Positions 1 to 35,687 of a DNA stretch of 64,000 nt are shown piece by piece (position 1 is the stretch's first letter; each line of letters opens with the position of its first letter). Both the position numbers and the translations under genes were made by a program. The notes under the pieces are model-generated. The model was not told the DNA's origin. It did not search any database and saw only the letters and a list, made by a program, of their open reading frames with translations. Where the stretch lies: NCBI GenBank assembly GCA_004123355.1, contig SCHM01000003.1, positions 2,356,001-2,420,000 of the forward strand. Reading direction: 5' to 3'. The stretch comes from Amphirosellinia nigrospora. Its lineage: Eukaryota > Ascomycota > Sordariomycetes > Xylariales > Xylariaceae.

Positions 1-1172
1 ACCCCGACCCGGCGCCACCATGCTCGCCCTTATTGTTGACGACCACACTCTGCACGTACTTCTTCACCATACGTCTGACGGCGTCTTCAGCTGCTGCTTG
101 GGGAGTCATGCCTAAGCGCAGGCTTTCGACTGCCTGGTAGCACGGCAGGAACCGCATCATGACGTCTCCGTCCCCCGTGGCGCCGCATCCGCCCACGTCG
201 CCGTCTACATACGACCCGCTGCCCGTAATCGGACCATCTCCCACGCGACCCGGCACCTTGCGGGACGCGCCGTTGGTCGAGGTGCCCGCCGCCATGGCGC
301 CGGAGCTGTGCAGCACGATCATGGAGATGGTGTCGTGCCCCTGGAGTTTGGACGTGTAATCCCCGGAGCTCGAGTTCACCGGAGACGGGCTGTATGGCCC
401 GCACGACGACGCCGCGTCCGGCGTCGTGTTGATGCGGTAATTGGTTGGCACCCGCCCGCCTTCCACGCCGCGCACGATGCTGCCGATTCGGGCGTCGTCA
501 GGTTCTCTGCGACGAAGCCGTTGCTGATTGCAAAGTCCGTCGCGAAATCGGCAGCTAGCACTACAATACGCGGAGTCAGTTACTGCCAGTTAGGGCTCAT
601 TCCTGGGAGTTTAGAAGCTTCTGGACACTCTCTTTCCCTGAAAAGGAGACTTGATGCACTAAAAGTTGCCAAAACAAGAAGAAAATGGTCCCGAGAATTA
701 CGTACTGGTGTGCGTCGTGTGCTCTAGCACGGCCCGCGCGACGCCTATCGCGTTCTTGATGCGACGGAGGGCTGCGACGCTCCCAGATTTCATAGTCGTG
801 CCGTCCATGATCATGGCGTCGAGAGTTGTCTGGTCGTCGCGGTCAATCCCTGCTGCCTCTATCTCGATGCTCTACCACTCTCACCTCGCAATTCTCATCG
901 GGGGAACCACCGTAGCCGACGCTGCCGTCACATTGGTTCGCCTCGCAGGTGCGACATCCTAGCTCGACGGCGTCCAGCGCCGATGTCTGCGCCTCGAGCA
1001 GAGAAAGGTATGCGGCGTCCGTGGCCGCGGTGAATGGGCCGCCCCATGTGTTGATCACCAGCGGTAGGCCCGGCGAGTTGCTGCCTGTATCATTTGTATT
1101 GGCTAAAGCAGCCGGCAGAGCGAATGCGAATGCGGCGAGCGAGCCCAGGCCAAAGCTACGCAGTAACGCCAT
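1..1172 (-). CDS. N(4)-(beta-N-acetylglucosaminyl)-L-asparaginase (aspartylglucosaminidase), 3' end cut by window edge
   Basis: An Ntn hydrolase that cleaves the GlcNAc-Asn bond during lysosomal/vacuolar glycoprotein breakdown. Exons are 1172-885, 829-706 and 560-1. The introns are 884-830 (55 nt) and 705-561 (145 nt, an introner-like element). The start at 1172 opens a signal peptide ([18 protein letters not shown]), followed by the family motifs [47 protein letters not shown] and, in exon 3, the autoprocessing site GHDT with the nucleophilic Thr and the substrate loop [14 protein letters not shown]. Splicing the 55-nt intron joins DENCE to TTLDAM exactly. One base is missing near 441, within a codon run reading [10 protein letters not shown] in the family, so the frame breaks there and then stays open to base 1. 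The homopolymer context suggests a sequencing error rather than a dead gene. The C-terminus lies outside the window. Confidence 0.9.
561..705 (-). mobile_element. Introner-like element, copy 1 (intron 2 of aspartylglucosaminidase)
   Basis: A 145-nt intron with donor GTACGT and acceptor TTGTAG, phase 1 (ACC A|TG). In transcribed orientation it shares its 5' block (ATTCTCGG, then TTTTCTTCTTGTTTTGGCAA), its central AGAAGCTTCTAAA and its 3' AACTGACTCCGCGTATTGTAG with the YIP1 intron at 21329-21474. The two align over nearly their whole length, which unrelated introns in unrelated genes do not do. The exon junction CCA|TG does not match the usual MAG|R proto-splice site. Confidence 0.8.
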
Positions 1173-2484
1173 GGTGAACGTTATGGTTAGGATAAGCGAG
1201 ATGAGGCGCCAATTCCTCGTGAGGGGATCATCTCGTTCGGTGCCTGCGGCGGGGTGGCCCGACTCGGCGGTTGCATTGCGGCCGTTTATTGATCGAGATG
1301 CATTTTCGGGTATGGATTTCCTATCGAGGGAGGTATGAGAATCCAGTCCAGGGGCCAACAGCATGCGCCACACTCGCCGAGTCCGGATAGTGTAGGGCTG
1401 TAGTCAGGGACGCCAAGCGACGATATAAACCCCGCATTCGACCCTGGATGAACCCCTTGTTGTGTGATATCTTCACCCTGGTTGAAGTCAGAATATCTTA
1501 CTCATTTGCTCGCTTCCATAACTCATGTACGAAGGTGTCGCGGTCGTGTGCGTGTTACAACAGCGTAGCATTCGAAGGATGCGTGAGGAAGTTACTGCAG
1601 AGTCAAATGGCGGACTCACCAACCAGCGAAACCTAAGCGACGAGGCATAACGCTTCACAGAATCTTATCAAGCATTTCTCATGAAGTGCATTGTGAGTTG
1701 TTTTGAGGCTATAATTAATAAATTTAGCTCGTCAGAATTCCTAAGGACACACGAAGTTGTCATGAACCTTATATCTACAGTAGAGGTACGAATGAAGTGG
1801 TTTATAAGAAAGAAGACAACCAATCGTGGTTATTCAATGTTCTCGACATCAAGATCCACGGGCGATGTCTGTCTAGATTCCTACACGAGGTACCATGCCG
1901 GATAACCGAGGAGGCACAACATTCGATTTTGACATGTCTATTGATGCGAACTGTGATATGTCCTGCGTCTTACAGGGCCTCGGGTCAGCCATACATTAGG
2001 TATCTGTGCCTGACTCGATGAAATTCTTGGGGTGCATCGCTTTCAATTGCCCGCCGACTCAGCTCTTGGCCGAATCGGGCAACAATCGATTTCCCAACTC
2101 ATCCTAATTGGCACTATTAGCCCTAAAAAGCTACGCTAGGGACGCCGTCTCATTAAACCCATCTATATTGCCACTATTCTACGTCCCGGGTTGCGGCTGA
2201 GAGAGATCATCTTCAGGCTTCTCTCATTCCTACTATACAAAGGTGGCCAGTCGCAATTCCCACCATGGGCAGCCTGCCATGGGCGGCGCCGTGAGCATGG
2301 GTTTGTTACTAGTGTGGTGTTCTATATGCCGTTGGTCGGTACACGGTCTAGAAAGCCCTACATCGTGTCTCGTGTTAACGGTGCTATTTTGGTTCCCAAT
2401 AAATACCCGCTCATGGACCCCCTTGCTCAACATACCGCTGGTTTCTGATCTGTCCTTGCCGTCGAGTGCGTCCTTGCTGTCAAG
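1173..2484. other. Intergenic region between divergent aspartylglucosaminidase and GH55 genes
   Basis: No convincing gene. Short open frames here have no recognisable domains and no splice support. It presumably carries the promoters of both flanking genes. Confidence 0.6.
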
Positions 2485-5228
2485 ATGCGTTTCGCTAGCA
2501 TCATCGGGCTTGCCATCCCTCTTACTTTAGCAGAGAAGTTGGTAATCCCAGCAGTCGAGGAAGCCGTCAGTTTACAATTGGCCCAGTTCAGCGAGTATTA
2601 CGTCGATGCAGCCAACGGAACCTTTGATTCCCGAGATGCTTTAGAGTCTCGGCGTATCAAGATACCCAGGTATCGAGGAGCGTCAGACCGGCAGCTATTG
2701 GTATGAGACTATAGCTCACCAAGCATCTCGGCTTTCAATGATAATCCCACGACGTACAAGGTGTACCGTAATGTTAAGGACTACGGCGCCAAAGGGTACG
2801 ATACACCGCCAAGCTCCAAATTTGAAGATACTAACATCAGGTAGTGATGGGAAAACTGATGATACTGCTGCAATTCAGCGCGCTATCAGTGATGGGAATA
2901 GATGTGCGCCTGGTGCTTGTGCTTCGAGCAGTACAACTAATGCCCTTGTTTATTTCCCTGCCGGTACATACCTTGTGTCTTCGTCAATTATCAGTTACTA
3001 TGCAACACACCTGGTTGGGAACCCTAACGATGTGCCTAGTTTGAAAGCAACTGCGGTCTTCTCCGGTTCGGAGTTATCGACGGCGCCCAGTATCAAGCAG
3101 GGGGCGCGTTGCCATATGGTGCTACCAATATCTTCTGGCGACAGATTAAAAACTTGATCATTGACATAACTTCAATCCCTGCGAAAACGCTGCTACTGGA
3201 ATTCACTGGCCGACGTCTCAGGCCACCAGTTTGCAAAACGTCGTCTTCAAGATGTCTAGTAATGCTGGTACTCAACATCAGGGGCTCTTCATCGAAGATG
3301 GTTCTGGAGGCTTCCTGAGCGACCTCACATTCTACGGCGGTAAATACGGCGCCGTGTTCGGAAACCAGCAATTCACCGTGCGGAATCTCTCGTTCTACAA
3401 TGTTGTCACGGCTATCAATCAGATATGGAATTGGGCTGGACGTTCCAGGGATTCTGGTGTCTAACTGTACAGTCGGTCTCGACATGGCCACGCGAGACGA
3501 AACTAACAAAGAAGTCGTGGGCTCCGCGACTTCTTGGACAGCTCCTTCGTCGACACCATGATCGCCTTCAACATCTCCAGAAGTGCGAACTCGACGCCCC
3601 GCACAGGCGGCAGCTTGGCTATCGAGAACGTCTCGCTAAAGAAGTCGGCACGGCAGTCCAATATGGGCCGACTGGGGCTGCTCTACTCGCGGGGACAACT
3701 GGCTCTAGTACCATAGCTAGCTGGGTGACCGGACAAGTTTACCACCCTAATGGACCCAACAAGGTTGCGGCCGCTCAGACAGCGGTCTCCCGACCTGCCT
3801 CGCTCCTAAACGGCGTCAAGTACTACCAACGGTCAAAGCCTTCATATGGCGAGTTGTCTTCCTCAACCTTTTCGTCCGTGCGAGCCGGTGGCGCCAAAGG
3901 CGACGGAAAGACAGATGACACAGCGGCCCTGCAGAAGGTAATCACTGCCGCGGCCGCCTCGGGCAAAGTCGTGTACTTCGACGCCGGCACTTACATCGTC
4001 ACTTCAACGCTCTTCATTCCCGCGAAGAGTAAGATTGTCGGCGAGGCCTATCCCGTGATCATGTCAAGTGGCGCTTTCTTTAACAACATTAACTCCCCAA
4101 AGCCGGTAGTGCAGGTTGCCAACCCGGGGGATTCCGGAATCGTGGAATGGAGCGATATGATGGTATCTGCGCAGGGGCGCAGCCCGGCGCTATCATGATC
4201 CAGTGGAACCTTGCCTCTCCTTCGGGGTCACCCAGCGGGATGTGGGACGGTAAGTTGATTCTTAGAGTTATTTCTCGCCTGATACAGTTTTTACGAAGCG
4301 GCAAAGGCTCCTATTAGGGACGCAATAGATATCAAAGGCTTTCGTTTTCAGAAATATGACAGATCCCAATCCAGATACCAATTACTGACATTGAATTCTT
4401 AGTACATACCCGCATAGGAGGAACAAAGGGGTCGGGCCTCTCATACGCAGACTGTCCCTCGGCACCCTCGTTGACGGCCGTAAACAACAATTGCAGAGCT
4501 GGCAATATCGCTATGCATGTTACGACATCGGCCAGTAATTTATATATGGAGAATGTTTGGTTGTGGGCTGCAGACCATGATATAGACGATCCCCAACTAC
4601 GACAGATTACGGTCTACGCAGGACGCGGCTTGCTTGTTGAGTCAAAAATTGGCAATATCTGGCTCGTGGGTACCTCCGTGGAACATCACGTCCGTTACCA
4701 ATACCTATTCCGCAACACCCAAAATATACGCGGGACAGATCCAGACGGAAACCCCTATTACCAGCCGAACCCGTCCGCGAGATCTCCCTTCCCACTCAAC
4801 ACCACTAGCGACCCCAATTTCGACGTCTCGTGTCCGAAAGACACCGCTGCGCCTAACTGTGCCGAAGCCTGGGGCCTCGTTGTGAGTGCTAGTAAGAACG
4901 TGCTTGTTTACGGTGCTGGTAAGTTGTTTTCCTCCCAGGGAGCAATCTCCTATAATTTTAGGGGTTCAAACTGACTGGCATACATCACAGGCTCTACTCA
5001 TTTTATAGCAACTACAGCACGTCGTGTTCTGTCGCGGGCGCGGCTACCCTCTGCCAACAGGGAATGGTGATGTACGATGCTGCCGGCACTACCAATTTTC
5101 GTATCTACGGTTTGAATACGGTCGGAGCCTATGGCATGGTATACAAGGATACAACGAGGTTGGCGACTTACGACTATAACATCAACGTTTTCCCGAGTTC
5201 GATCATATTATTCGACAATGCAGCCTAA
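2485..5228 (+). CDS. GH55 exo-beta-1,3-glucanase (pectate-lyase-like fold), many single-base frame breaks
   Basis: A secreted glucan 1,3-beta-glucosidase of family GH55, acting on laminarin and fungal wall glucan. Exons are 2485-2795, 2845-4249, 4403-4918 and 4991-5228; introns are 49, 153 and 72 nt, and the first has a TACTAAC branch point. A signal peptide (MRFASIIGLAIPLTLA) is followed by SYWYETIAHQG and then two right-handed beta-helix halves, each opening with a GDGKTDDTAA motif (about 2845 and 3899). Later motifs include FIEDGSGGFLSDL, NVWLWAADHDIDD and a GLLVES segment, as in the family. About eleven base losses (near 2670 twice, 2730, 3070, 3190, 3434, 3452, 3526, 3645, 4182, 4991) are needed to keep the family frame. 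With them the coding length is exactly 827 codons, normal for GH55. The breaks could be assembly error or real decay; this gene has the highest density in the window. Intron 2 may be a worn introner-like element. Confidence 0.85.
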
Positions 5229-5531
5229 CATGTATTTAGTTTAGAAACCCGTCTGTCATTTTTACAAGTAAATTTAGTGATATTCTGAATCCTTAGCGAA
5301 GTTCACCAGCTATTACTTGGGTACAAGGTCTGTTAAAGGGAAACTCTACAATACCACTCTTGAGCGATCGCACACACGATAGCATAGAATCCAAATAAGA
5401 CTGTATTGATCATGACGAAAACCATCCTAGTAGTAAAATTATCTTGCGCCCAGGATACATATATAGAGCTACATAAGCAGGATTGCCTCTGCTAAGGTTC
5501 CCTCAAGGCTGTACGGCGTGTGCACTACCAG
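5229..5531. other. Short intergenic region, convergent gene ends
   Basis: About 300 bases between the ends of two converging genes. I see nothing in it beyond probable 3' untranslated sequence. Confidence 0.6.
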
Positions 5532-6387
5532 TCAATTCTTACTGTAGCTCCTGACGAAGATCGATACAACTAGCAGAACCCCCCTAAACCCAAGGTGGCG
5601 GTGGGATTCCATTTCGGAGGTCATACATCGACCTCGGCCCAACCCAATTGTGGTATGCTGAACGCGCCCCACGCCCAGGTCCTGGACAGAAAGGAGGAAG
5701 TAGCGGATAAGGGGGAGGGGGGGAGGATGAGGAGGAGGTGGTATTGGTGAGTTGTAGTAGTGATGGTACCAATTGTAATAACGTCCAGATGGTATGTTAT
5801 ACGGGAAACAGTACCACGGAGGATGGTAATACATTTGCGGTCTCGGGCCCTGCTGACCAAACCGCCCTGTGTTCTCTTGCCGAAAGGCTGCCTCCAATCT
5901 TCGTTGGCAGTGCCCCTCCTCGTATGTTACGGGTTGTGCCGTACCATCTGGGCCCTGGGCGTTGTCCTTGTACAATTCGTTATACCTTTGGTCGTAACTG
6001 CGGCGCTTTTCTGGGTCCATCAGTGTGCCAAAAGCCTCGCGTAACTATGAATCTCGTTAGTAGTCTGCTCACTTATCTCCTGTTCCGTCCTCTGGGTAGC
6101 GTTGAAAATGTCGTCTTCTTTGCTCTTCCGGACATCGGAGAAATTCGACCGAACAGCATGCTCAGATTAGATCCCCAAACGTATATAAACGTCAGGTGTA
6201 GATGGCGAAGATTAGTTACATACCTCTTGGAGCTTTGCAATTACTGCCTGCTCGTTTCCTGGATTTATATTTGGCTGATGAATACGAATATGTATGAGAC
6301 GGTGATGATAAGAGGTTCGAATCTCTTCCTCCGAAGCTTTTTCGTGTACCCGAGGATAGCATAATAGTTTGGAGTTTCCGAAGACAT
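5532..6387 (-). CDS. J-domain-like protein with degenerate HPD motif
   Basis: A short protein with an N-terminal DnaJ-like domain. Exon 1 is 6387-6224 and exon 2 is 6044-5532; the 179-nt intron 6223-6045 has a CTAAC branch point. The start MSSETPNYYAILG opens helix I, then comes VHEKASEEEIR, and after splicing LREAFGTLMDPEKRRSYD, a typical J-domain helix IV. The loop that should read HPD reads Q-P-N (HQPNINPGNEQ), so the Hsp70-stimulating tripeptide appears lost. The downstream part is Pro/Tyr-rich with repeated PPPP near 5700. One base is missing near 6350 (a C run); with it restored the frame is 226 codons. The last 60 residues are uncertain because an alternative frame stops at 5584. Whether it works with Hsp70 is unknown; J-like proteins lacking HPD usually act as adaptors. 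Confidence 0.7.
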
Positions 6388-7090
6388 GATGACGTCGGAT
6401 GGTCTCACAACCTCAGATATGTCAGACTTGTAGCAATGAAGTTCTTTATAGTTACTGGATATTTCCCAGCCTGATGTAGATAGAATGGGATTGCAAATTG
6501 GATAGGCAGAAAGACCTATTTACCACGACGTATGGCCCGAAAGCAGTGAGGGGAATGGTGTGAGAAGTATAAAATATTATGGCCGATCGATACGCAGGAT
6601 ATAGACTTAAATAAGAAGAAAAATCGAAAGTTTAAATGGGGTTCCAACTTTTTTCCTGTTTAATAAAAAAAGGTAAGCTTTGACTTTGTTGGGTTATTGT
6701 GTTGAGTAAGTTTCCCTAAGCCGACATAGACAACCTTGTCAGAAACCTTCATTTTATTACTAAGTCCTGTTTTTATTCCTCTTCGGTATATTTTTGCACC
6801 GAAAATGAAGAAGTCCAAGTAAACGTTAACTCTCCTCTGTAGCTATCCTATTAGATTATACATGAGTGAGACACTGGGCTCTTGAAATTGCTCTTTGTTA
6901 CTCTAGATACAGCTTGGAATCTAGCAAAAGAAGCATCGTCGACAATGATCTATGAATTTGTCAGGAACTCACTAGTGCTATGTCATAAGCTAGTATATCG
7001 ATCATTATACAAAACTCGCATTGATTGCGATGCAACAACCTGATATTAGCTTAGACCAGACTGCGATCCCGAGGCGCCTACCAAGCCAAC
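6388..7090. other. AT-rich intergenic region
   Basis: About 700 AT-rich bases upstream of the J-like gene and downstream of the NLR gene. I see no open frame with recognisable protein content. Confidence 0.6.
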
Positions 7091-10000
7091 TTATTCTGAT
7101 AAGTAGAGTCGCTTCAATGTCTCCTTCCACTCTTCTAGCGTAACCCATCTCTTCGGGTCATTTGCAGGCAATGGCAAACAACCCTCGGCAAATCCTTGAA
7201 GCGCTCTGCATCCCAGCTCGGGATCTCGATGAACTTGTGCTCTTTCTTGCAATGGAAGCCCTTCATATCAAGTTGATCGTTCATAAGTAAGGCGTGGCAT
7301 CGACGATCAAGTTGAATATTACCAACGCAGTCGACGCAATTCATCAATGGCTCGTCCATCACGGTCCACTGCCCGTCGCATCCATCGCAGCCGACGAACC
7401 AAGTCGGCTTTGGGGGCGCGTCATCCGGAGCAGCCTCCACGATATCTGTCGAAATCCTTGCAGGGGGCGCTTTAGGTTGAACCTCTTCATCCTTGTGCGT
7501 TGGCTCAGGAGCCGACAACGCTGTGGCCGTCCTGATGAGCTTCCCGTTTTCCTTCACTGCATCACTGTTTGGGGACTGCGTACTTCCCCTACTCCCGCTG
7601 TGTCCGGCGATCGACTTTTCTCGGTCTTTTGTTACGACCGACGTATTGGAATTCGCTCGCGAGAGGCTTGCTTCTAACCTGCTATCGATTGAATCTTGTC
7701 GTGGCACTTCCTTCTTAATTGGAGACGCGATGGGCGTGGACACCCATTCCTCCCACTTGGCTACGTCATATGCCTGAATCGCATTCCACATATTCCACGT
7801 TAACTACAACACTCGCAATTAGTTTTTCCTGTTTATAGCGTGAATTTTGAGCGTTTCAGAAGCTTCGAGACATCATCACGTCCCAAAAAGAAACGTCGTG
7901 CTCATAAAGGGCCAGAGCAGGAAGAAAAGAACTACCATATGGTTCTGTTGGTCTTCGATGGTAACGAAAAGCCTGCCAAGGAGCCAATAGGCGTAGGTGT
8001 CGTTATCTGCGGATGGAATCCGTTAGCACGAGCTCACGCATTTGGGGCTGAGTCGGATAGTATTTAGTTAACGTACCATCATCTGAATCAGAGAGAAGTT
8101 CGAGTCCAGCACGCACAATTCTCTCAACCCAACGTTTCGCAATATTGGACTTCGTCTGGCGTCTGTAGTGGTACCTAATGATACAGCAGATTGTTATGAT
8201 ATTGCCCCAGGCATCCATACCTTCGTTTACGTCCGGCAACAACGCAGTCAATGACGATCCAAGCGACTCTACTTTCTCTTCCGACACATTTGGTTCAAAG
8301 GCCTGGTTGAGATAGATTTGGGCTAGCAAATTTGTCATATCATGAATTCTGTTTCGAGGAAGTGTATCGCTAGGGTGGGCTTGCATAGACTCGAGGGCAG
8401 CGACACGAATACCTATGACTGTCTTTTCATCAACTACACGATCAGTGAGTTCCAACGTTCTTGCGAATGCCTCTCGGAGGAGGAATAGCAATTCGTATGC
8501 CTGTTGGCTGCTGCCTATTTCCATGGCAATTGTGAAGAACGTCTCAATGGCGTCCCATCTATCGGTAACGTCGGCCGCTTCTGCTAGTATATCGGAGTCC
8601 TCGTCAAGGATGGGAATGATGAATTCATTAACGAGCTCATCAAAGTACGCGTCCCATATTTCGCTCGTCTGATTTAAGGTCTCAATGAACGCGATAAACT
8701 CCCCCCATTGCGCGCTGTCCTGATAACGGCCGAGGACTTTAGCATACGCACTAAAGTGAACGTAATCGTACTTTAGACTTTCGCGATGGGTGCGGGCCGC
8801 AGAGGGAAAGTCGCCTAACTCCCATAGCTTATTTCCCAAGTCAAGGGTAATCCTAGCCAAGAGGGCCGTGTTAGCAGAGTCGTGCAGCCAAGTCTCATCT
8901 TTAGCGCAGATGTCATCCACAGCGCTCTTTGCCCGTTTGAGTAGTTCAACGCCCTCCTCTTTGCTGGTAGCCGGTCGGCCAGCGACGAAATGGCATGCAT
9001 GCCAGTTCTGAGGGTTCAGTTCAAGAGCTCTCTTCGCTCGCCGCTGAGAGATTTCCTTCTTTTCCTCTTCGTTGTTACATAATTGGAATGCTTGAAGAGC
9101 ACCGTGAATCTCCCAGAGGGATTCATGGGTTGGCGTAGACTTGGAGTCGGCTAGTTCTTGGAATGCCCAAGCCTCGATCCTCTCCAGTTCGCTTGAAGAA
9201 AATGCAGTGCTCTCCCATTTTTCATACTCGTCCGATTCAACGTTTCGGTAGATAGCGGGGTCATCCGGCATTTCGTTCCCCTCCAACTTCAAAATGATTT
9301 TAGTTTAGTGGGCAATGTTATACTTCGTGGGGAAATCTTACCCTGGCCAGGTATCCTCGTAAGAAACACGTTGCAGCTAAGAAGTGACGCTTCAGAAACT
9401 CTATTTTGATAAATAGATGCGTTGCCATACGTCTAGCTGCATGTGATAAGATGGCCTGGTGTAGATTCGTTCCAGGTGCTTTTATCGCAGCAAGAAAAGA
9501 CTGGCCGGCTTCATCCGTAATGCACTTTGTTACCATGGAGTCGCCAAACCAGCTAGATTATGAGTTAATGCTTGATATTTTGGGGAAGTTGAAAATTTCA
9601 AAACATTCCGACTAAAGGATCGAACGTTATAGTATGCCGACAGGGGGCGGGGTATAGTAAATCAAAATGTACATACCGTTCAATCTCGCGGACACCAGCT
9701 TTCGAATATACCCATTCGTTTCGCGACTCGCGTATATAGATAGCTTCGCCTTGCTCCCAAGTCTTCATACTGACATTAGCATCTATACGAGCAGAAGTCA
9801 GCCATTGATCTTTGAGTTTGAGTGAGGCCGCGATCCTCTCATAGCGAAGCCTGTGCCATGCCACAGAAACTATTATCTAGCATCTAGCTGGCGATCTCTC
9901 CCCTGGACATATTACCAGCCCCTCAATAGTTTATGCTAACAAAGGAGGAGGATGTAGATAAAGCGCAGCGCGAAGGAGTCCGCTTCCCTTATACCCTTCG

Positions 10001-15088: not shown

Positions 15089-15108
15089 GTTCGGCTACCG
15101 AGCCGAAC
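15089..15108. repeat. Short perfect inverted repeat, TTCGGC type
   Basis: GTTCGGCT and its reverse complement AGCCGAAC flank ACCG. Its outer half-site TTCGGC..GCCGAA is the same as in the longer palindrome at 60183-60208. Confidence 0.5.
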
Positions 15109-20836: not shown

Positions 20837-21980
20837 TCACGATAAATTGGCTGCCTTCGCTAGACTGCCTGATCCACGGCTGCTGAAAATGCTCATGATC
20901 CCAAACCCGACGTAAAAAAGTGCGAGAGGGTAGGCTACCAGTATTCTCATTTGCCGCATTCTTCCAACCGCGCAGAACAAGCCACTGGCACTGGTTGTGC
21001 ACCACATAATGGCCGCGGTCGTCAAAATGTACCCAAAGGGGCTATCCATAGGCATCACAATGCCCACCAAGCTGACTAGCACAAGTGGTAGAAGGCAATA
21101 TCCGAGTACGCTTGCACTCCTTACAAATGTCAAGGTACTACTGAGGTGACCCTTGGGGTCGTCATGGCCGCCAGCGGTTGGGTCGCCAGGATATCCCGAC
21201 CCTGGCGCATACCCTGACGATGCATGCCCAGTCGATGTAGAATCCGGACCGTCTGGAGACATCAACGATAAGATTGTGTGTAATGCGATGGAACCCATTA
21301 ACGCTAATCCGTAGATGTAGCCAAAATGCTGCAACACTCGGAGTCAGTAATTGTCATTTGGAGCTGATTTCCCAGGGTTTTAGAAGCTTCGGGATACTCT
21401 CTTGCCCCAGAGAGTAAATCTCGCGCTTTATTATTTGCCAAAGCAAGAAGAAAACAATTCCGAGAATCACTTACCACCTTCCCACTGAGAAGCAAGAACG
21501 TGCCGAAAAGGAGGAAAAAGAGAATAGGTCCCGCCAGATCTGAGTCGTCCATGATGTGCTGGTCGATGCGCGCAAACGGATTAAGGACAGCTATAGTCTA
21601 CATTCCACGTTAGTCTCATGCAAACGCAAACGTTGGGCTGTGTCGTTCTCAGATCTCACCTTCATTTGGATATGCCCCCAGTTCACACCTAATTCTTCTA
21701 ATAACGGCGGTTCGCCATCGTAACCCTCTGTCGAGAAAGCAGCGATCCAGCCGGTCCGTAATCCGCCCTGTTCTCCCATACGCCCGCTCACACCCTGCGC
21801 GCCGCCAAATCCGCCATAGCCGCTTGGGCCTGGTGGAGGTGCTCCGTACCCGTAGGGTTGTGCGCCGGCTCCTTGTGGTGGGACGCCTGGAGAGTAGGAG
21901 GATGGGTAGAATTGTAGGTTTTGGGCAGGAGCACCGCCACCATATTGATTTGTAGGAGGCGCTCCGTAGTACTGCGACAT
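20837..21980 (-). CDS. YIP1: YIP1-family Golgi/ER membrane protein
   Basis: A Rab-interacting membrane protein needed for ER-to-Golgi vesicle transport. Exons are 21980-21660, 21597-21475 and 21328-20837, giving 311 residues and no frame break. The N-terminus is a Gly/Pro/Tyr/Gln-rich cytosolic tail ([16 protein letters not shown]). It is followed by the conserved [15 protein letters not shown], then [21 protein letters not shown], the Yip1 signature preceding the membrane part. The C-terminal half holds about five hydrophobic helices ([28 protein letters not shown] and others). The first intron is 62 nt. The second (146 nt) splits KV|HFGYIYG and is the best-preserved introner-like element of the window. 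The gene is divergent from PAM16, with 716 bases between start codons. Confidence 0.93.
21329..21474 (-). mobile_element. Introner-like element, copy 3 (intron 2 of YIP1), reference copy
   Basis: A 146-nt intron, phase 0, donor GTAAGT and acceptor GTGTTGCAG, with branch point TTACTGAC. Blocks shared with other copies: GATTCTCGG after the donor, TTTTCTTCTTGCTTTGGCAA, CGAAGCTTCTAAAACCCT, and ATTACTGACTCCGAGTGTTG before the acceptor. It also holds a possible hairpin, ACTCTCT...AGAGAGT with a six-base loop. The junction GTG|CAT is not a proto-splice site. Confidence 0.8.
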
Positions 21981-25075: not shown

Positions 25076-25255
25076 ACGAATTCGCTAAAAGGGAAGGAAA
25101 GGGAAAAGGGGGAAATCCCTGTGCTATTGCTTATCGATATCTAGATTGTAAGGACGGGAAATCGTGTAATTAAAACACTTCCATTCTGGCGGTGCCATCA
25201 GACCTAGTATAAATCAATTTTCTACCCAAATGGCAAGACCTAGATAGCTTCATAC

Positions 25256-25618: not shown

Positions 25619-25648
25619 CCTACAGCGTAACAGTTTCAGTACTTCAAG

Positions 25649-25858
25649 ATGACAACCACAGGCCGTAAACCAGACCCGGCGGCGTCCGCCTCAGGCACAG
25701 ATCAACCATTGACAACTGAGAAGGAGTCTGCCGTTATACTATCTAGCGACTCAGATGCTGGCATCCCGGCCCAACAACCTAAGACGCAACAAGTGCGACA
25801 GGACGACGTCGTGGATGAAGACGACGTATTTCAACAGGATCACGTATCATGTAGTTGA
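25649..25858 (+). CDS. Hypothetical small acidic protein
   Basis: A 69-residue ATG frame, Thr/Ser-rich then acidic (ILSSDSDAGIP, DDVVDEDDVFQQD). No known domain. It looks like a disordered N-terminal exon rather than a finished protein. The frame ends in CSS-like sequence followed by AT-rich DNA, and I could not identify a downstream exon with confidence. Confidence 0.25.
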   Translation: MTTTGRKPDPAASASGTDQPLTTEKESAVILSSDSDAGIPAQQPKTQQVRQDDVVDEDDVFQQDHVSCS

Positions 25859-26754
25859 TTTTTATGCTCGAATATCTTCGTATCTGCATTATTTCCGTTA
25901 GCTCTATGCCATCCAAGTCTGCGGTCTTGATTTTGTGCTGGAGGTCCTCCAGCTCGCTTCTCCAGGTCTTCAACACCTTTTGTGTCCGTTGGCACATATT
26001 TCTTATTGCTGCCCGGCACTTCGTATGCGATGTCGATCTATGTGTCATTTGATGAGATTGCCTCCCTCCTGTCATCTATATCAGAAACTACATGCGCACA
26101 GCTACAAATAGTAATCTTCCCACAACATTAATTAGATTTAGTCAAGAAAATTAACACTTATCTTCCTGCTCAACCGTTGGTCTTTACCAAGGCATTCTAA
26201 TTGTGGATTACATAGCATTACAGTCTATATTATTAGTAGCAGCTTTTAAAGCTCCTCTTCGGAGAAACAGCTTGTATACACGGACATGGAGCTTTCTTCG
26301 ACTCTTTTTCATACTTAGAGTTTCTAAAGTGTATGGTATTCGTTAGACATAGACTTAGCTTATATAAATATGATCGTGAGTAATCGTATTGTGGCGATGT
26401 TCTAACATTTGGTAAATTAACTAGACCCCTATACCGATGGCACGAAAATAAGGTGTCTATCCCCGAGAATCGTAGAATCATATTAAGTTCCCACTTAGTA
26501 GGAGACGAAAGGGTCTTAACTTCGCGCTTGGTAGCTGAGATAGAAATAAGTTAAGCAGTTCCTAGATGCGCAAAAAAGTCTGCTGTTGTTCTAGCAAATG
26601 AAGTAAGCCTCAACTTTTTCTAATCCATATTAGAGGCTGGTTTATTGGATAAAACAGCTCCCGAATGTGACTAGTTTTAACCATAAGGCAACAACAGTTT
26701 TCTAATTACCATATCGGCGCACCCCTTTTTTTTAACCGTCTGCCACGCTGTGTA
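25859..26754. other. AT-rich intergenic region
   Basis: About 900 bases downstream of biotin-protein ligase. A minus-strand frame at 25779-26075 has a charged helical look (ELEDLQHKIKTADLDGIEL) but no family. Otherwise nothing. Confidence 0.45.
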
Positions 26755-28783
26755 TCATATCTTCCGCTTCACCAACCCTCTAAAGAAGTCAAAGCTATTC
26801 TCGTCGCTCTGCAGAGCCCACATCTTGCCAGTCGGCTTGTCGTCCCTGCCGAGCTCCTCAGCTTTGAGCATGCCCCAGTCGGAGGTAATGCCGACGATAC
26901 GAGCCTTAACGCCCCCCTCCGCTTCAAGGGTGACGATCTGACGGCCGTGTAGCCAATCATTGTAATAGGCACGCTCTAACTCCCTCGTGAAACCATAATG
27001 GACAAAGGTCTTGTACAGTGTCTCAAGCCGAGTTAATATGTGAGCTGTAAGCTTCTCGATTCTAAACGGCGGGAGATGGGATGGTAGAAGGGCGTCGAGA
27101 GAGGTCGTCGGTCGTCCGTTTGTTGTGTTGATGCCTATTCCTAGCACAATCTGGTACGATCCTGAGGAATAGACGCAGTTGGATAATATGCCGCCAATTT
27201 TGACGTATGTTGGCTCAGAGGATGAGTTTCGAGGGTCACGGGCGTAAATATCATTGGGCCATTTCAGTTTCACGGGCAGTTGGTCATATCCAGTATCGTA
27301 TGTTTTGATAGCCTGGACGATTGCAACCGCAGCCAAGTATTGAATAAACACGATAGGACGGCTCGCAGCCAGATGGCCCGGGTGGTTGATCACTGTAGAC
27401 ATGAGTAACGACCCCGGGGCGACACCCAGACGTTAGTACCACGACCCCGTCCTGCCACTTGGGTAGTGGCAGTGAGGGTGAAGCCAGAGGGAGTTTGGAA
27501 AGAAGCTTGAAATTCTTTTCTAGGATTGTGTTGGTGCTTGTCAAAACCTCGCCGTACATCAGGTAATTCCCCCACTCCTCGGCTTCGGTATCTTTCTGGC
27601 GGTAATCTCTCAGACTCGAGAAGAATGCATGATGGTTAAAATAAGGGGTCGCCTTAGCCTCGGGCCATTCTCGTTCATGAGCGACAATGCGTTTGACGAT
27701 CGTCGTGTAATCAATCAAAGCTTCATCTTTCGAACTAGACGGGGTTGTAAGCTCTCCCGTACTTCCATTACCAGTGAGTGTATCCTTCAATTGGTTCATA
27801 GACCATCTAGTCTCGGTCTTTTCCAAATGAAATGTATCATGTTCTGCTCTGATATATTCTTCTCCGTCTTCCTTGCTGATAATCTCCTCCCAGGAATATA
27901 ACAAATCATCGATGTTGCCGCTGACGATAGAGGATAAATGAAGACGGGACAGGGAAGGCACACCTGATGGCTCCTGGCTTACTTCAAGACCAAGTTTTGT
28001 TAGGCAAGCCTTCAAAAAGCTTACCCGATCACCATCGCCCGCTCGGAGAGTAGCGATTAATGCGTCGTACCCATCAACGCCATGATGGGGACTAAGATTC
28101 ACCGCGGCGAATTCGGGGTGAGGCCCAGTAAGGATAGCAGCTCCCTCGCCGACTCTACAATAGACTACTGCTGCGTCTTCCATTGCCCCGTTGACATAAA
28201 GTTTATCATCATAGCTAGCCAAGACCTCGACATCATGTTGTCTTGAGCATCGACAAATACGCCGCCGCCATTGTAATATGACATGACAACCTCAGGCACT
28301 ACACCTGCACCCTTGAATGCGATCTTCTCGACGTTAATCCGCACCGCCTTGGCCCCTTTCTCCGCTGTTGTATTGGAAGCCTTTGAAAGCACCACCTCGG
28401 CAGGTGCCGGGGAAGAAGGCAAGTTCCCTCGACCCGATGACTTCCATAGGTCTATTGCCGACCTCAAACTCGCACTTTTTCGATCCATAATAGGCGCCGG
28501 CACAGAAGCCGAGATACTTTCCACCACGGCGTACATACTGGGAAATAATGGAGTTCCCCTCGCCGTTCAATACACGGCAGTAACCAAGGTCTGCACCGCC
28601 AGGAAAAACCAAGAGTGCACACGACGGAGCCCACGGCTCCTTGAGCAGGACGTTATCGGCGACAGGTATGACGGCATAGTTCGGGGACAGCAGACGCCGC
28701 AGGGAGTAGATGGCGTGTTTCACCGACTCGACCGTAGTCCCCGTGCCATTGTACACGAGGACATTCAGTTTACGGGATGTCAT
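26755..28783 (-). CDS. BPL1: Biotin--protein ligase (holocarboxylase synthetase)
   Basis: Activates biotin to biotinyl-AMP and attaches it to acetyl-CoA and pyruvate carboxylases; an essential housekeeping enzyme. Intronless. The N-terminal BPL_N glutamine-amidotransferase-like domain is clear (NVLVYNGTGTT, LLVFPGGADLGYC, GGKYLGFCAGAYYGS). The catalytic half carries the biotin-binding loop ATTQVAGRGRGTNVWVSP, followed by LMSTVINHPGHLAASRP and the LKWPNDIYARDP segment with the conserved Lys. The BPL_C domain ends in SDENSFDFFRGLVKRKI. The frame is broken near 28362 (one insertion or two deletions), 28234, 27492 and 27416. Restoring it gives 678 codons, the usual fungal length. Because the gene is essential, these are probably consensus errors. 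Confidence 0.9.
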
Positions 28784-29048
28784 CGCTGCTCCCTTTGGAC
28801 AAATTGCCTTCTGGATTCGGACTGAAGCGGGGTGTAAATAGTGCCGCGCAGTATCCGGAATACAGCTCAGAAGAAATGGCCAAAGGTTGCCGGGCTTGTT
28901 ACCGCCCGTGATTGCACTGGAATAAGGTTAGGTACTTACGGAAGCCTATCAACTGTAGCCCACTAAAAGTTCGTGGACTGCACCGGACATCCGTTTCTAT
29001 CAGAAAAGCTTCCAATAGCTCAACCCAGGAGCAACAAAAAAGTACACA

Positions 29049-29509
29049 ATGTCAAAGAAAGAAGATTTAGCTCAGAAAAATCCACCTAAACCAGTAGAGG
29101 ACGATGAACCTGACGAGTGGTATGAGTCCAAGACTTTATGTATGCATGCTGGTCTCAGAAACTGACACAGCCCTCGACTTTATAGGGACAAGAGAATCTT
29201 CAGTACAGGCTGCGCTGGTATGTCAGCGAGATCAAACCCTTCATGAGGGATTTTCTCTTCCTACTTGCGCCAATTAACAGGAACTGACAAACTGGCCCGA
29301 TAGATGAAAATGCCAATTTGACCGACTGCTACTGGCGGAAGAAGGACTGGCGCGCTTGCACGAAGGAGGTATGCTCTTCTCTTGTCATGTCCCTCAACGA
29401 ATAGCCGTGATAACTAACCCACTCGCAGATGGAAATCTTCCGGGCATGTTGGAAGAAAAACAACAATGACGAGAGGACATCTACCAAGGATAACACTGAC
29501 AGGAAGTAG
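29049..29509 (+). CDS. COA4: COA4-like twin-CX9C protein, mitochondrial intermembrane space
   Basis: A small CHCH protein of the cytochrome c oxidase assembly type, imported and oxidised by Mia40. Four exons: 29049-29119, 29186-29217, 29304-29368 and 29429-29509. The introns are 66, 86 and 60 nt, all GT-AG, with phases that fit exactly, giving 82 residues. After an acidic head (PVEDDEPDEWDKRIFSTG) come two CX9C pairs, C-ADENANLTD-C and C-TKEMEIFRA-C, joined by YWRKKDWRA, then a Lys/Asn-rich tail. DEWDKRI..TGC followed by DWR.C is the pattern of Coa4/Cmc3/CHCHD8. The gene is too exon-split to be seen as a single frame. It is divergent from BPL1, with 265 bases between start codons, and GGTTAGGTACTTAC lies between them. 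Confidence 0.8.
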
Positions 29510-29971
29510 AAGACGAATTGGAGGGAAATCAGAAAGAAGATTTAAATGCTTTACCGCTTACTTCTCGGCTCATTCCCCTGTATTTATAGGTCGTAAAGGG
29601 CCAACTGTTTAAAATTATCAACAACCTGTCAAAGATACCCATGGTTAGTTCACGTATAGCCCCGAAAGCAACAGCTCATCAAATTTACAGAGCTGGATGA
29701 TTTAAGTAGAAGAAAGAATATCGTGATTCAATTCGCCATAGCTAGCTCTGTACAAGGAGAGCTGCACTGATGAAGAACTGAGTGAGGCCCACTAGACAGA
29801 CTCATTACCTTAGGTAGACAGCTACCTGTTAGCGCCTTAAGTAGCCGCCGCCAAGAGAGCCAATAGCGAATACCTATCCCACCATGAAATTTCCCAACCG
29901 CCAAAACATTGATACAGCAGCTTCCTCACTTACATCACCACCATAACCCAAAAGATCTCCAGACCGCCACG
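29510..29971. other. Intergenic region with MGM101 promoter
   Basis: About 460 bases between two genes on the same strand. TACCTTAGGTAGACAGCTAC at about 29806-29825 is a member of the TAGGTA motif class and lies about 150 bases before the MGM101 start. No other feature seen. Confidence 0.5.
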
Positions 29972-30946
29972 ATGGCCTCCCGCACCATGTCTCCGCTGCA
30001 AGCAGCCAGCCGACACATATCCCTAGCATCCCGGAGTTCAAGATTAGCGACCCAATGCGTCGCGCGGAGGCTCGTATCAACATCGAAAGCAAAGCCCTAC
30101 CCAGCCTCCTCAACCCCCAGCTCGTACCCCGCCACGAAGACAGCATCACCACCCATCCCTCCACGATCTGCGGCACGGCCATCTTACACGAGCGCCACTC
30201 CCGCACGAAAGCCCATACCCGCCGTATCGGGGGAGCCGCTCCCCGACGCACCACCAGCCACAGCGCCAGCCACGGCTTCGACGACGCCGAGTAATGGGAA
30301 CGGGAACGGGAACGGGAACGGGGGCCAACAAGCCGCAGCCAACATCAACGAAGATGGGGCGCCGATCGACTGGACGAATTCATTCCACGGCCTGGGGACG
30401 TCCGCCTTCGGGCCCGAGACGGCGACGATCCTACAAGCTCGGCTGGACCCCGACGACATCGAGGTGAAGCCCGACGGCATCATCTACCTGCCCGAGATCA
30501 AGTACCGGCGAATTCTCAACGCGGCCTTCGGCCCGGGCGGCTGGGGTCTGGCACCGCGGGGGAGTTGATGGTACAGGACCGGCTGGTGACGAGGGAATAT
30601 GCGCTCATAGTACACGGCCGGTGAGTTACCACACTCTACCACACCCACTTCTTCCCCCTCACTGACATAAATCTCGATTTAGATTCGTAGGCCAAGCGCG
30701 GGCGAGCAGCAGTACTTCAGCGAAGACGGGGTATCGACGGCAGCTGAGGGGTGCAAGTCAAACGCACTAATGCGGTGTTGCAAGGACCTGGGGATCGCGT
30801 CGGAGCTGTGGGATCCGCGGTTCATCCGCAAGTTCATGAAGGAGCACGCCGTCCAGCAGTGGGTTGAGCACGTCACCACCAAGAAGAAGAAGCAGATCTG
30901 GCTGCGCAAAGACGACGAGGTCCGCTACCCGTTTAAGAAGTCGTAG
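29972..30946 (+). CDS. MGM101: Mitochondrial genome maintenance protein MGM101
   Basis: A Rad52-like single-strand annealing protein of mitochondrial nucleoids, needed for mtDNA repair and retention. Exons are 29972-30620 and 30683-30946 with a 62-nt intron. The first 60 or so residues are Ser/Ala/Arg-rich with few acids, a typical mitochondrial presequence. A Pro/Thr-rich linker holds an Asn-Gly repeat coded by a hexanucleotide run. The core starts at [15 protein letters not shown] and includes [54 protein letters not shown], and the C-terminal [15 protein letters not shown]. One G is missing at each of two sites (near 30560 and 30701). With both restored the frame is 305 codons and matches the family throughout. 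Confidence 0.93.
30293..30323 (+). repeat. GGGAAC hexanucleotide repeat within MGM101
   Basis: Four to five units of GGGAAC (GGAACG in other phase) encode an Asn-Gly run in the disordered linker before the conserved core. A likely site of length variation between strains. Confidence 0.8.
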
Positions 30947-31386
30947 CCACCTTCTCCCCTCTCACCAGCAAGCGGCCAAATAATCTTTTGAGATGAATGC
31001 TGGGATAGTAATAAATGATGGCGTCTGGGGCGGACAAAGGATTGTATGATATATGAGTCTACGTATGTATAAACACTAGACGCCGCATCAAATGGTTGGT
31101 GGGATATACCGACGAAACATGTACATCTCGGTCTGATCAAGGCACAGCGGACACCGACGATGCCTATCTCGCACAGCCATGCCACATCTGGATAGCACCA
31201 GCACATGGCAAATTAGTCATAGATCAGGCAGCTTGAGGATAGAATAATCAGAAGTCGCCTAGCGAGGTGCGACTCCCAACTCAAAAAATCATTGAGCGCT
31301 TCAAGTCTTACGACGAGAATAGTTACAAGAAAACTGCGCTGTCTGATCCTGCCCCTTGTAGAGCTTCGTCTAATAAAGTGATATTC
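30947..31386. other. Intergenic region, convergent gene ends
   Basis: About 440 bases between the stop codons of MGM101 and the HVA22-type gene. I see nothing in it. Confidence 0.6.
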
Positions 31387-32583
31387 TTAACGCCGCCTAA
31401 TGACCCATGTTACAGTAATCCCCAAACTCCTTACGTCGAGTCGATGCCAGCAGTCATGAGTATCACTCTTGCCGATACCGGTGCTCTGACCTTGACTCGG
31501 ACTACCAGCCGCGCCCCAGCCAAAGAAATTCCACCCGGCTCTCGCAGCTCCAGCATCTTCTTCGTTGTTCACTCTTCGACGAAGACTCCCATCATCGTCT
31601 TCACCCCCGCTTGGGGTGTCGATCTTCTCGAAGTCAACCTCGCTCCGGCTCTTGCTCAGCCCACTACCGATGCTATACCCACTCGGCGGCCGCGAGGGTT
31701 CCTGTCCGTCCAGACTCATGCTGCCTATCCTTCTCGATTGCTCGGCTGTTCTGCGGTGCTCCTCATTTTGTTGCAACTCGGCAGCCTCGCGATCCAGTGC
31801 ACCCATCATAAAAGCAAGTCTATCTCGCTGCGCGGCGATAAAAGTAATCTTCTCCTGCACCCCGCCAATGTTCTCCGGGATCACCGTCTTGCTCGTCATC
31901 GCACCGCCGCCAGTGGGTGTGGACAGACCACCCGCGGCCGCGTTGACGGCACCAGCTAGCAAGTTGTAAAAGTCGTGGCCAGCAGTCCCGGCATTGTTGG
32001 CGGCCCACCGGGCAGCCGGCACGCTGAACCTAGCAAGCAACGCCTGTGTGTAGCCCTGGGGTGCCGCGGCGGCCCTGGTCTCCTCCTGTCTTTCGGATGG
32101 AGGTAGGTTGAAGACACGTGTGCGGATCAGCTCGATGGCCTCCTTAAGATATCGAATGCCAGCAGCTCTGAATCTATCGTGGGCGCTGGCGATGAAGTCT
32201 TCGATCGCGAGTTCGTTCTCCTCAAGGTAAGGGTGGAGGTAGCCCTCGTATAAGAGACGCGCGCCTTGCGTCGACGGGAGCACCAGCCATAGCAAAAATC
32301 CAAGTCGTATCCACGAGTAGAACGGGATCCAAGTGAGGATAAACTCAGTCCAGGACTCGGCGAGAAGTGCGCAAGATAACACCGACCAGTACATGAGCCA
32401 TGGTGTCAGTTGTGCCGGGTCGGACGTCTTAAGCGCTTTATAAGAGGCGAAGAGTGGGAAGAGGAAGGATGCTATGGAACTACAAGATGAGTAGCCTAGT
32501 CAGTAAAGTCACAAATTCAGCATGATGCCGGCATATGACTCAAGATTCGCTTACGCAAAGAAGTGTGCTATGATGTTGAACAT
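31387..32583 (-). CDS. TB2/DP1/HVA22 (REEP) family ER-membrane-shaping protein with long C-terminal tail
   Basis: A reticulon-like hairpin protein that curves ER membrane. Exon 1 is 32583-32555, a 75-nt intron follows, and exon 2 is 32479-31387, giving 373 residues with intact frame. The N-terminus MFNIIAHFFASIASFLFPLF and SYKALKTSDPAQLTPWLMYW is the family signature (KAxxS...DxxxWLxYW). Then come hydrophobic hairpin segments (TEFILTWIPFYSWIRLGFLL, then LVLPSTQGARLLYEGYLHPY) and the helix LEENELAIEDFIASAHDR. The remaining 230 residues are Ser/Gly/Glu-rich and probably disordered, ending in two Trp-rich stretches. The long tail is more like REEP1-4/Hva22 (S. pombe Yep1, Magnaporthe Rop1) than the short Yop1/REEP5 type. 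That subtype call is inference. Confidence 0.85.
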
Positions 32584-34319
32584 GGTAGCGGGTTGTCTCG
32601 TAATTATGGGCAGCTGTGGCAGACACAATACAAGGCGCGGATCTGGATTTCAACCCTCGCAATAATCGCCTAGTGTACAAAGATTTTTGAGGATAGTGGC
32701 AGATTCAGCTGACTCGCGTAGAATCATAGGCGGAGTGGTTAGAAATGGGATGGTGCGACGACGGAGAGCTGGTCGATCGATTTAGTCACTAAGGCCAAGA
32801 CGACCCTAGCAAGGCTCGGTTTTTCCAAAGCACGAAGTGTAGATAGTGCCGGAGGTAGGCAGGTAGATGAAGAGGTGGTAGTAGAATGGGTGCAGCGTTT
32901 GTGGGATTTGAGAGGTTTCATAGGAATGACAATGGGAACAAAGTGTGATGGTGAAGGTATGACGAAGGTCACTGCCCAACAAGGCCCCACATGGATGATA
33001 GCGGGTGACCCCGCCAAGCTTGGACCTGGACTGCCCTGGACTGCCCAATGCAGCAGGCAGCTGCATCAGCTGTGCCGGTCAATTGACGAGCGAAGACGGC
33101 CGCACAGCTGCGCAGTGGGCTGCGGCTGGCTGGTGCTTATCCACGCGGGGTCTTAGCGGGGTTGGGGCGGCTCCACGCTAAGTGCGGGCAGGTTGCGGGG
33201 TGATCCATCGAGCTCCTGCTAGGCTGCTGTTGGTACCTGCTGCGTAATTAATTTAACTTAAATAGACCGCTAAAATCGGAGAACAAGGAGCAACGTCTCA
33301 TTACTTCGTAATGATGAAGTGTTCAACACATGGGCATCTAATTGATGGTGCTGCATGCCTTCCCAACATATTGCATGATATCATAGCTCCTACGAAGCCA
33401 GCTACTAAGTAGCCCAACTGACTCAGCTAAATCTGATCACATTTCAGTGACTTACTATATCTAAATACGAACTTTAACATAATACAATAAACCCTCAGAA
33501 ATAAGTCGGATAGGTTAGCAGGATGAAGACGCCATGAGATCGCGAAACCAGGCACACAGTTCGACAAGATATTTAAGAGTCCTGTATTTCTTATTCTATA
33601 TTCAAATATTTTTCCATATTTTTATTCAAAGCGTAGAATAGTGTCCTACACAATGCGTAGCGCTGAAAAAGTTTGCTATTCTTTACGGCAACTTCCGCAA
33701 CTAAGAATATGCTAAAATGTCAACATCATGAAGGAAATTATAGCAGTCAGAGAATCGGACTAGACAAAATCTCCAATGGCCAACGACAGGACGTTGATTC
33801 TTGCAGTCAGGTAGGCTTATCCACATACACCTTCGCAATTGATTGTTTACATAATAAGCGAAGATTTCCCAAGCAGTAACTAAATCGCCACAAGGCATAC
33901 ACACCTAGACCGATGAACCCCTGTATTTAGTCAAATAGCCGGGTCTTCACATGCATCAAGGAACTAAGGTTGCGAATTTGAGTCTGGGAAGCTCCCTGTC
34001 ATGTATATATTATTATATGTGTGTGACCTTCCACACGTTGCCTCGACTATTCCACCTATCCCACGCACCTCCAACCTCCAACCTCCGAGACATACTATAC
34101 GAAACGGAGCAGTCCCAAACGCGAGGCAAAGCAACTAGCAACCAGGCTATTCCACTACATAAAATACCCTTCTCCTATCGCAAAGGAGCGAGGGAGAGGA
34201 CATTAACGGCCTACCTAAATATATGGAAGATAGATCTTCATGGCAACTTTGGCTCCATATATGATTAGTAGCCAAATTGAATCTATCCCAAACCCTCATA
34301 CGAGCCCTTATTACAGTAA

Positions 34320-34415
34320 GTCAGGGTATAAGGTCTATGTTGATATATGTTGTTGTGCAGAGAGTCTAGGAGTCCGAAGGGCTGGACCCTGGATATACAT
34401 ACAGACCCTTTGTCC
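34320..34415 (+). repeat. Degenerate dispersed repeat, copy
   Basis: Contains TGTTGTTGTGCAGAGAGTCT, then ATACATACAGACCCTTTGTC. These are the two halves of a repeat also seen near 34.62, 39.00, 40.37, 55.93 and 56.02 kb. Copies are diverged, so boundaries are approximate. Confidence 0.5.
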
Positions 34416-34618
34416 CTAAGGTCTCATATCTCATGGAGGCTACGTGAAGCATAGTTCTAAAACCCCCGCACAATGACAAGTGCCTATTACTGACCTCAAA
34501 TCCAGGGCTTCGAACACATTTACCTCTGCAGTCGTAAAGTTCAACAGATCGGTGAACTAAATAAATATACTATTCAATATCAGACTCAAGCCATGATATC
34601 AGATTTAGTTGTACTGCA

Positions 34619-34730
34619 AGGGTCCCCTGGAGTAGCCGACCATAATGGTAGATAAAGATGATTGTTGTTACGCGGAGATGTCTGAACCATCTTCGTAAGC
34701 TAGTCCTAGTTACATACACGTTTATGCGTT
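34619..34730 (+). repeat. Degenerate dispersed repeat, copy
   Basis: Contains ATTGTTGTTACGCGGAGATG, TCTGAACCATCTTCGTAAGC and TAGTTACATACACG, matching the other copies in the same order. Confidence 0.5.
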
Positions 34731-34928
34731 GCCATCAGAATAGTATCGCGCAATTTTCCACCTCTACCTCTGACAGCTCAGTAGGCCATCCCTTGAGCCT
34801 GCCGAGCCCCTTCGCATCCCGTGAACCAGCTCACACGATCCTCAACAAAATGCTCCGTCTTCGGTCGTAGCTTAGTCTGTTTGAAATCCAAGAGTTAATA
34901 AAGTTTTAATCACGGTCAAATTCTCCAT

Positions 34929-35687
34929 TTATTGAGAAAACACATGAGCATCTACGTGTACTGGTCTGTACACGGGGATGAATGATTTGAACATCCTTAC
35001 CTCGACCAGATTGAAATCGTCGATAGTGCCGAGACGCGCGACTTTGACACCGGGAAACCTCTCACTAGTCCGATACATGAGAGTGCCGCACGTCTGGCAG
35101 AACCAGTTGGTCATGTTCTTCTTCGATGCAATCGTCGTCGATTGGCCGAATGACTTGAGGTTTTCTTGGCCTCTAAGATGCCTCACACTATAATACTGGG
35201 TGTTAGTTGTCACCATTTGAAGTGTGATATGTGAGGGTTTCAGAAGCCGAGAGGCACTATCGGCCCAAAAAGAGTAAAAGGGTTCCGTACGCTTCATCTT
35301 TGGCAATTATATTCGATGCGAACATCGATGCTGTGAGCTTCCGACAATCTGAACAGTTACAGATAAAGACGTCCACAACACTTGGGCCTTCAGTTGGCTA
35401 TAAACACATTAGCATAACGGGTATTCTCACCATATCGCAAGACTGATGGGTGTTCGGAATGGTATAATGGTCGGAGGATACCACTGATAGCAGATTACAA
35501 CCACTAGCCAGTCTAGAAGACTAGCTATAATATCAAAATTTGCAGGCTGATGATCATGACCTACCAAAACTATCTGCACAGTGCCACAGAAACATGTAGC
35601 CGTTGCTTCAGTATCGTTGGACCAGCCGTCCTGTTGAAGACTGTTATGAGGGATGTATGGCTTGTTTCTGTCCGCAGTTGACGCCAT
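34929..35687 (-). CDS. GFA (glutathione-dependent formaldehyde-activating enzyme/CENP-V type) zinc protein
   Basis: A small zinc-binding protein of the GFA fold; the substrate is unknown, and most fungal members are not proven glutathione/formaldehyde enzymes. Exons are 35687-35565, 35397-35291 and 35187-34929, giving 162 residues with intact frame. Zinc ligands are visible: CFCG in exon 1, CNCSDCRKLTASMFASN in exon 2 and NWFCQTCGTLMYR in exon 3, as in the family, followed by KVARLGTIDDF. Intron 1 (167 nt) is ordinary. Intron 2 (103 nt) sits between KDEA and VRHLRGQENL and is a shortened introner-like element. The gene stands alone at the edge of a gene desert. Confidence 0.9.
35188..35290 (-). 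mobile_element. Introner-like element, copy 4 (intron 2 of the GFA gene), shortened
   Basis: A 103-nt intron, phase 2 (GC|T), donor GTACGG, acceptor TATTATAG, branch AACTAAC. The 5' third of the element is missing. The rest matches the YIP1 copy: TTACTCTTTTTGGGC with TTACTCTCTGGGGC, CGGCTTCTGAAACCCT with CGAAGCTTCTAAAACCCT, and TCAAATGGTGACAACTAAC with CCAAATGACAATTACTGAC. Confidence 0.65.

Follow-up and report, generated by a model that had tools for sequence, protein, structure and literature searches.

Four introns of a 64,000-nucleotide stretch of the Amphirosellinia nigrospora genome (below, the window) are very probably, at about 0.93 by our estimate from the sequences, copies of one non-autonomous family of introners, i.e., mobile sequences that create introns. 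The window covers positions 2356001-2420000 of contig SCHM01000003.1 (C5 in our numbering) in a 48.1 Mb assembly of 11 contigs (GCA_004123355.1). The genome carries hundreds of copies of the family, and new ones appear to arise when the element inserts precisely into the exons of genes that are expressed. The preferred insertion point is CA|TG, or more generally YA|TR (the bar marks the point), with no visible target duplication.

Introner Copies in the Window

All four introns lie on the minus strand. The first (561..705, 145 nt, phase 1) is a full-length copy that matches positions 1-147 of the family profile with 114.7 bits and interrupts an aspartylglucosaminidase gene at CA|TG. The second (7804..7935, 132 nt, phase 0) is shortened at its 5' end (profile 16-147, 93.9 bits). 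The third (21329..21474, 146 nt, phase 0) is again full-length (profile 1-147, 115.1 bits) and is found in a YIP1 family gene at TG|CA, and the fourth (35188..35290, 103 nt, phase 2), which has suffered an internal loss (profile 60-147, 45.8 bits), in a GFA family gene. The coordinates, GT..AG ends and phases given in the original prediction were borne out, with the joined frame open on both sides in each case, and the proto-splice signal MAG|R is indeed missing at all four junctions. As for the host genes named there, Pfam domains (Asparaginase_2, Yip1 and GFA) cross the junctions of the first, third and fourth introns and agree with their labels, while the label NLR for the host of 7804-7935 was left unconfirmed, since the joined exons had no match in Pfam.

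The family profile was built from 29 genome copies, with every window copy excluded, and 20 dinucleotide-shuffled windows served as a control. The likeness of the four introns, which had been proposed from an alignment by eye, exceeds chance: their E-values range from 1e-34 to 2.5e-13, and the best shuffled window reached 9.7 bits (E 0.65). In pairwise alignments, five of the six intron pairs scored above all 300 shuffles. The remaining pair, from the aspartylglucosaminidase and GFA genes, scored 20, whereas its best shuffle reached 25. The GFA copy is the weakest of the four and stands above the shuffles with two of the three others.

A likely fifth, decayed copy (153 nt, phase 1), which was not among the introns of the original prediction, is proposed at 4250..4402 on the plus strand. 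The profile matches it at 4257-4389 with 12.2 bits (E 0.0058), and its joined frame is open and reads GMWD|VHTRIGGTKGSG. A search of the window against Rfam at gathering scores found nothing. Separately, the aspartylglucosaminidase frame 3' of the introner seems to be shifted by one base (at about 430-460, minus strand): the phase-1 frame soon ends, and homology continues in a different frame, which may reflect a sequencing error or a pseudogene.

Copy Number and Age in the Genome

A genome-wide check for further copies found many. With the YIP1 intron as a query, 40 places were scored among 43 candidates; with a second copy as a query, 40 were scored among 95 candidates, and the nearest other copy was 95% identical. 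The end motifs were then counted across the genome with at most two mismatches and with a reversed control. The 3' end motif gave 236 matches (127 + 109) vs. 9 in the control (3 + 6), and the 5' end motif gave 750 (389 + 361) vs. 276 (135 + 141). Among 60 loci fetched by exact motif, 58 had a profile match at the motif, a few of them partial, and some of the 60 were the same place reached from both ends.

Based on the profile search, 137 loci together with the window contain 143 distinct introner places, 128 of them at E<1e-10. A simpler count gave 142 places (124 at E<1e-10); the recount joins four split matches and treats duplicates otherwise. The full-length set used below comprises the 87 of 142 copies with a single profile match across positions 1-147, which became 94 of 143 after the recount. 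When both end motifs are crossed, the number of recognisable copies comes to very roughly 490 to 840, a range to be read with the fact that the two ends do not decay independently. The further copies, together with scores far better than those of shuffled sequences, support the introner interpretation of the original prediction.

All full-length copies start with GT and end with AG (87/87) and are about 146 nt long. They fall into a GTRCG subfamily (51/87), which is more homogeneous, and a GTRAG subfamily (36/87). The identity to the nearest neighbour has a median of 0.845 and a maximum of 0.952, and it is at least 0.90 in 22 of the 87 copies, which agrees with the earlier suggestion of a family that is active in this genome or was so until recently.

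In 17 loci besides the window, two to four introner places lie on a single strand in the space of about 3 kb (E<1e-8). One-strand clusters of three to five places within 3 kb occur at C4:9169570-9172702 (L017, where the fifth place has an E-value of 5.6e-05), C1:10816238-10819379 (L016) and C1:608406-611532 (L021). These three clusters suggest repeated invasion of one gene or neighbourhood. In the same genome, at least 151 HET-domain matches were present among the candidates scored; HET expansion is typical of filamentous ascomycetes.

Boundaries, Host Exons and Strand

Blastn was used to compare seven loci, at six places, that have close copies. The similarity between places was confined to the introner and extended at most a few nucleotides beyond it; the flanks at the six places are unrelated, and the host genes span different Pfam families. 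Twenty proteins, chosen for long open flanks together with the four window copies, were tested against Pfam, and domains crossed the junction in 14 of them (7/10 in each of two sets).

Several host genes could be aligned with relatives at the insertion point. In a gene for an Spb1-type rRNA methyltransferase, the introner is located at LAKEKG|YRAR, and none of the four PDB relatives aligned has a gap at this point; a second introner copy lies further on in the same locus and strand. In an Abhydrolase_3 gene, the gene's own match is interrupted at the introner, and eight of the nine other genomic matches run across this point unbroken, one of these containing an in-frame stop. Four Abhydrolase_3 paralogues were read. 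The junction is ungapped in two, including the closest (GGGLVAGGVDI vs. GGGMVAGG|IDI), and in the other two a gap of one residue lies next to it. A GFA paralogue (30% identical) also reads through the introner point. Wherever relatives were alignable, insertion appears to be seamless and to affect otherwise continuous coding exons.

The family has its own donor (GTRMGY), a branch-point motif (CTRAC, in 79/87 full copies) and an acceptor (YAG), so the element could act as a spliceosomal intron wherever it has landed in sense. Splicing is presumed from the GT..AG ends, the branch motif, the open joined frames and the domains that cross the junctions. It would restore the frame exactly, which would explain why copies are tolerated in coding exons.

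Codon usage favoured the sense strand in 92 of 104 copies, of which 55 were strongly sense and none strongly antisense, while random points in the same loci gave 25% strong sense and 25% strong antisense. A first scoring round had given 60/73 sense vs. 48.5% at random points. Codon scoring replaced a test of stop-free open reading frames in 57 copies, which proved weak (median of 39 codons for joined, 35 for mis-joined and 24 for antisense frames). Thirty copies have open flanks of 40 codons or more; 11 of these are in phase 0, 13 in phase 1 and 6 in phase 2. By codon usage, most introners lie within coding exons and in sense.

Insertion Site

In the full-length set, the exon base following the insertion point (+1) is T in 67/87 copies, and the preceding one (-1) is A in 51/87. 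Position -2 is a pyrimidine in 69/87 and position +2 is G in 45/87, and the combination YA|TR was seen 26 times vs. 1.4 expected. MAG|R does not occur at all (0/87), AG| occurs once, |G twice, and a G precedes the donor in 15/87.

A scan for target-site duplications (TSDs) found no within-copy match at equal positions in 59 copies; this set, also used for single-copy folding, dates from before the final 40 loci were added. A signal at offset -2 (z 2.7) was isolated among many comparisons and was taken as chance. The idea that CA|TG stems from pairing between the exon bases on either side was not supported: sites other than A|T are complementary in 5/43 cases, and positions -2/+2 in 31 vs. 28.8 expected.

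End Repeats and Folding

The element has an imperfect 12-nt near-terminal inverted repeat, formed by nucleotides 5-16 from the donor and the 12 nt preceding the terminal AG. In the YIP1 copy, the 5' arm is located at 21459..21470 and the 3' arm at 21331..21342 (minus strand, coordinates derived by hand), and the predicted branch-point motif CTGAC is at 21343..21347 on the same strand; its role is deduced from the motif, CTRAC being conserved here in the family.

Over the 87 full copies, the end arms pair at a mean of 9.7 of 12 positions (6.8 by Watson-Crick pairs alone) vs. 4.5 when slid. In an alignment of 30 copies, of which 29 were used (L060 was left out), a hand-named end helix has 93.1% paired cells vs. 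27 to 54% when slid. RNAalifold predicted only eight pairs near the 3' end of these 29 copies and not the end-to-end helix. Minimum-energy folds join the ends in 42/59 copies vs. 80/295 shuffles. The consensus of the GTRCG subfamily has longer end pairing (z -2.8), and the folding of the GTRAG consensus is not unusual (z -0.37).

Comparison with Known Systems

Ascomycete introner families reportedly have neither terminal inverted repeats (TIRs) nor TSDs (Gozashti et al. 2022, PMC9860276). Like the introner-like elements of Dothideomycetes (PMC4457414), the present family consists of repeated spliceosomal introns in unrelated genes of an ascomycete, with hundreds of copies and with both decaying and younger families. 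The Dothideomycete elements reportedly have a preference for AG|GY (cited in PMC8469720) and are by this description set apart from the present family, in which YA|TR dominates and AG| and |G are rare.

The sister stwintrons and cropped sister introns of Xylariales form a second group for comparison. Xylariales stwintrons have near-terminal repeats and random sites (PMC8469720, PMC9024468, PMC12403724). In common with the present family, the sister introns proliferate and have near-terminal inverted repeats that begin at donor nucleotide 5; the repeats take up the stretch from branch point to acceptor, and insertion is seamless, with no TSDs (PMC8469720, PMC12403724). They differ, as far as these sources describe them, in that the introns reported here are single ordinary introns rather than [D1,2] stwintrons, in the sequences of arms and palindrome, and in the CA|TG bias. 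The start GGT of [D1,2] stwintrons is not a feature of the family, in which a G precedes the donor in 15/87 copies, though internal introns were not systematically looked for. The arms also differ from the Xylariales NTIRE-10 arm, GTATAAAAAC, and an exact match to that arm joined to its donor is absent from the genome. With one mismatch, this donor-plus-arm motif gave 39 matches vs. 15 for the reversed control, a weak, unrelated excess.

With DNA-transposon-type introners of algae and protists (PMC9860276), the family shares genic enrichment and ends that form inverted repeats at, or close to, the splice sites; it differs from their description in that no TSD was found, no splice site is recruited from a TSD, and the host is an ascomycete. 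Spy transposons also have TIRs, lack TSDs and insert in the middle of a palindrome, which is AAATTT for Spy and CATG here (PMC4482050). Within the literature covered, the family is a member of the introner class whose combination of end structure and target rule was not found described. Four strings of the element occurred in none of the open-licence papers, a search that took in neither supplements nor subscription papers.

Helitrons insert between A and T without a TSD and end in TC...CTRR. The site A|T is shared by 44/87 full copies, but the family begins with GT and closes with YAG, which on the opposite strand gives CTR...AC. A search of the genome with Helitron_like_N gave 0 matches, with the control genomes silent too.

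Route of Spread

Based on the above results, we slightly favour a transcription-coupled RNA route over TIR-type DNA transposition. In such a route, the excised intron RNA, its ends kept together by the paired arms, could enter a new site by reverse splicing, or be trapped where the DNA is nicked or broken, and would then be converted to DNA. The sense bias, the genic location, the seamless insertion, the lack of duplication and the arms that may keep the RNA ends together are the features that suggest it. That arms hold the ends of an excised intron RNA close to each other has been argued for stwintrons (PMC12403724).

Several observations weigh against this RNA route. No pair of the end helix has changed on both sides in the 29 aligned copies, so the pairing is conservation and not covariation. 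Copies folded singly are of ordinary stability overall (mean z -0.3, 59 copies). Against the introner reading as such, a stricter strand test on joined frames gave 73/86 sense, with 30 strongly sense copies and one strongly antisense, and the paralogues serving as empty sites are only 30-43% identical; they show continuous exons in relatives and not the recent empty site itself. As to the route, the inverted-repeat ends and the palindromic target point to DNA transposition; CA|TG is identical on both strands, which reverse splicing into a single strand does not obviously predict. Capture of the intron RNA at a CATG-specific break would fit the RNA and DNA facts alike.

It could well be, although we incline against it, that the family represents a MITE, a miniature DNA transposon with TIRs, which also acts as an intron. 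A transposase would cut CA|TG bluntly, leaving no target duplication, and antisense or harmful insertions would be lost afterwards. The inverted-repeat ends and a target that is its own reverse complement speak for a MITE. Moreover, Spy demonstrates that TIR elements can insert without TSDs at a palindromic site (PMC4482050), and most introners outside ascomycetes have TIRs or TSDs, as far as PMC9860276 describes them. However, strongly antisense copies are nearly absent (0/104 and 1/86 in the two strand tests), although insertions outside coding exons ought to be tolerable on either strand, and the TSD scan of 59 copies found none. No match of DDE_Tnp_4, which we take to cover Spy transposases, was found in the genome. 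The DDE_1 transposase had only four matches genome-wide; they lie on contigs C9 and C10, and the ends of these matches were not read. No longer element with the same ends (of the CTRCAAYACTCGGA type) was seen within the sequence read. An ascomycete introner moving as DNA, i.e., a site-specific and TSD-free transposon carrying a complete intron, seems to us rather doubtful, because a new kind of blunt site-specific transposition would also be required.

An improbable explanation is that the CA|TG pattern arose through selection for splicing after insertion and not through choice of the site. The rarity of G at +1 (2/87) and the single AG before the donor could mean avoidance of shifted splice sites. 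Against this, the pattern is missing in 80 candidate ordinary introns obtained by motif search, with false ones surely among them, where +1 is T in 20/80 and G in 18/80, and -1 is A in 20/80. It is also alike in better and worse conserved introners (+1 T in 34/43 and 33/44, respectively).

Repeats often survive best inside introns, and it might be supposed that the elements landed in pre-existing introns and created none. This is very unlikely, as GT and AG are the element's own ends in 87/87 full copies, the compared places share the element alone with no leftover ordinary intron sequence, and the paralogues have no intron at those points. A resemblance due to gene duplication or chance, for which the one window pair that fails to beat its shuffles could be cited, has a negligible probability and is refuted for the family as a whole by unrelated host genes, unalignable flanks and scores far above the shuffles.

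The transposon marks are reportedly missing from published ascomycete introners, for which an RNA route has been proposed. The present family is a good case for the study of intron birth, since it combines hundreds of copies in one well-assembled genome with a sharp target rule and inverted-repeat ends. The RNA and DNA routes predict differently here as to whether copies occur in antisense or between genes, whether there is a partner transposase, whether spread depends on splicing, and insertion at CATG. If true, movement as DNA would link the introners of fungi, which have been read as RNA-borne until now, with the DNA-transposon introners of other eukaryotes.

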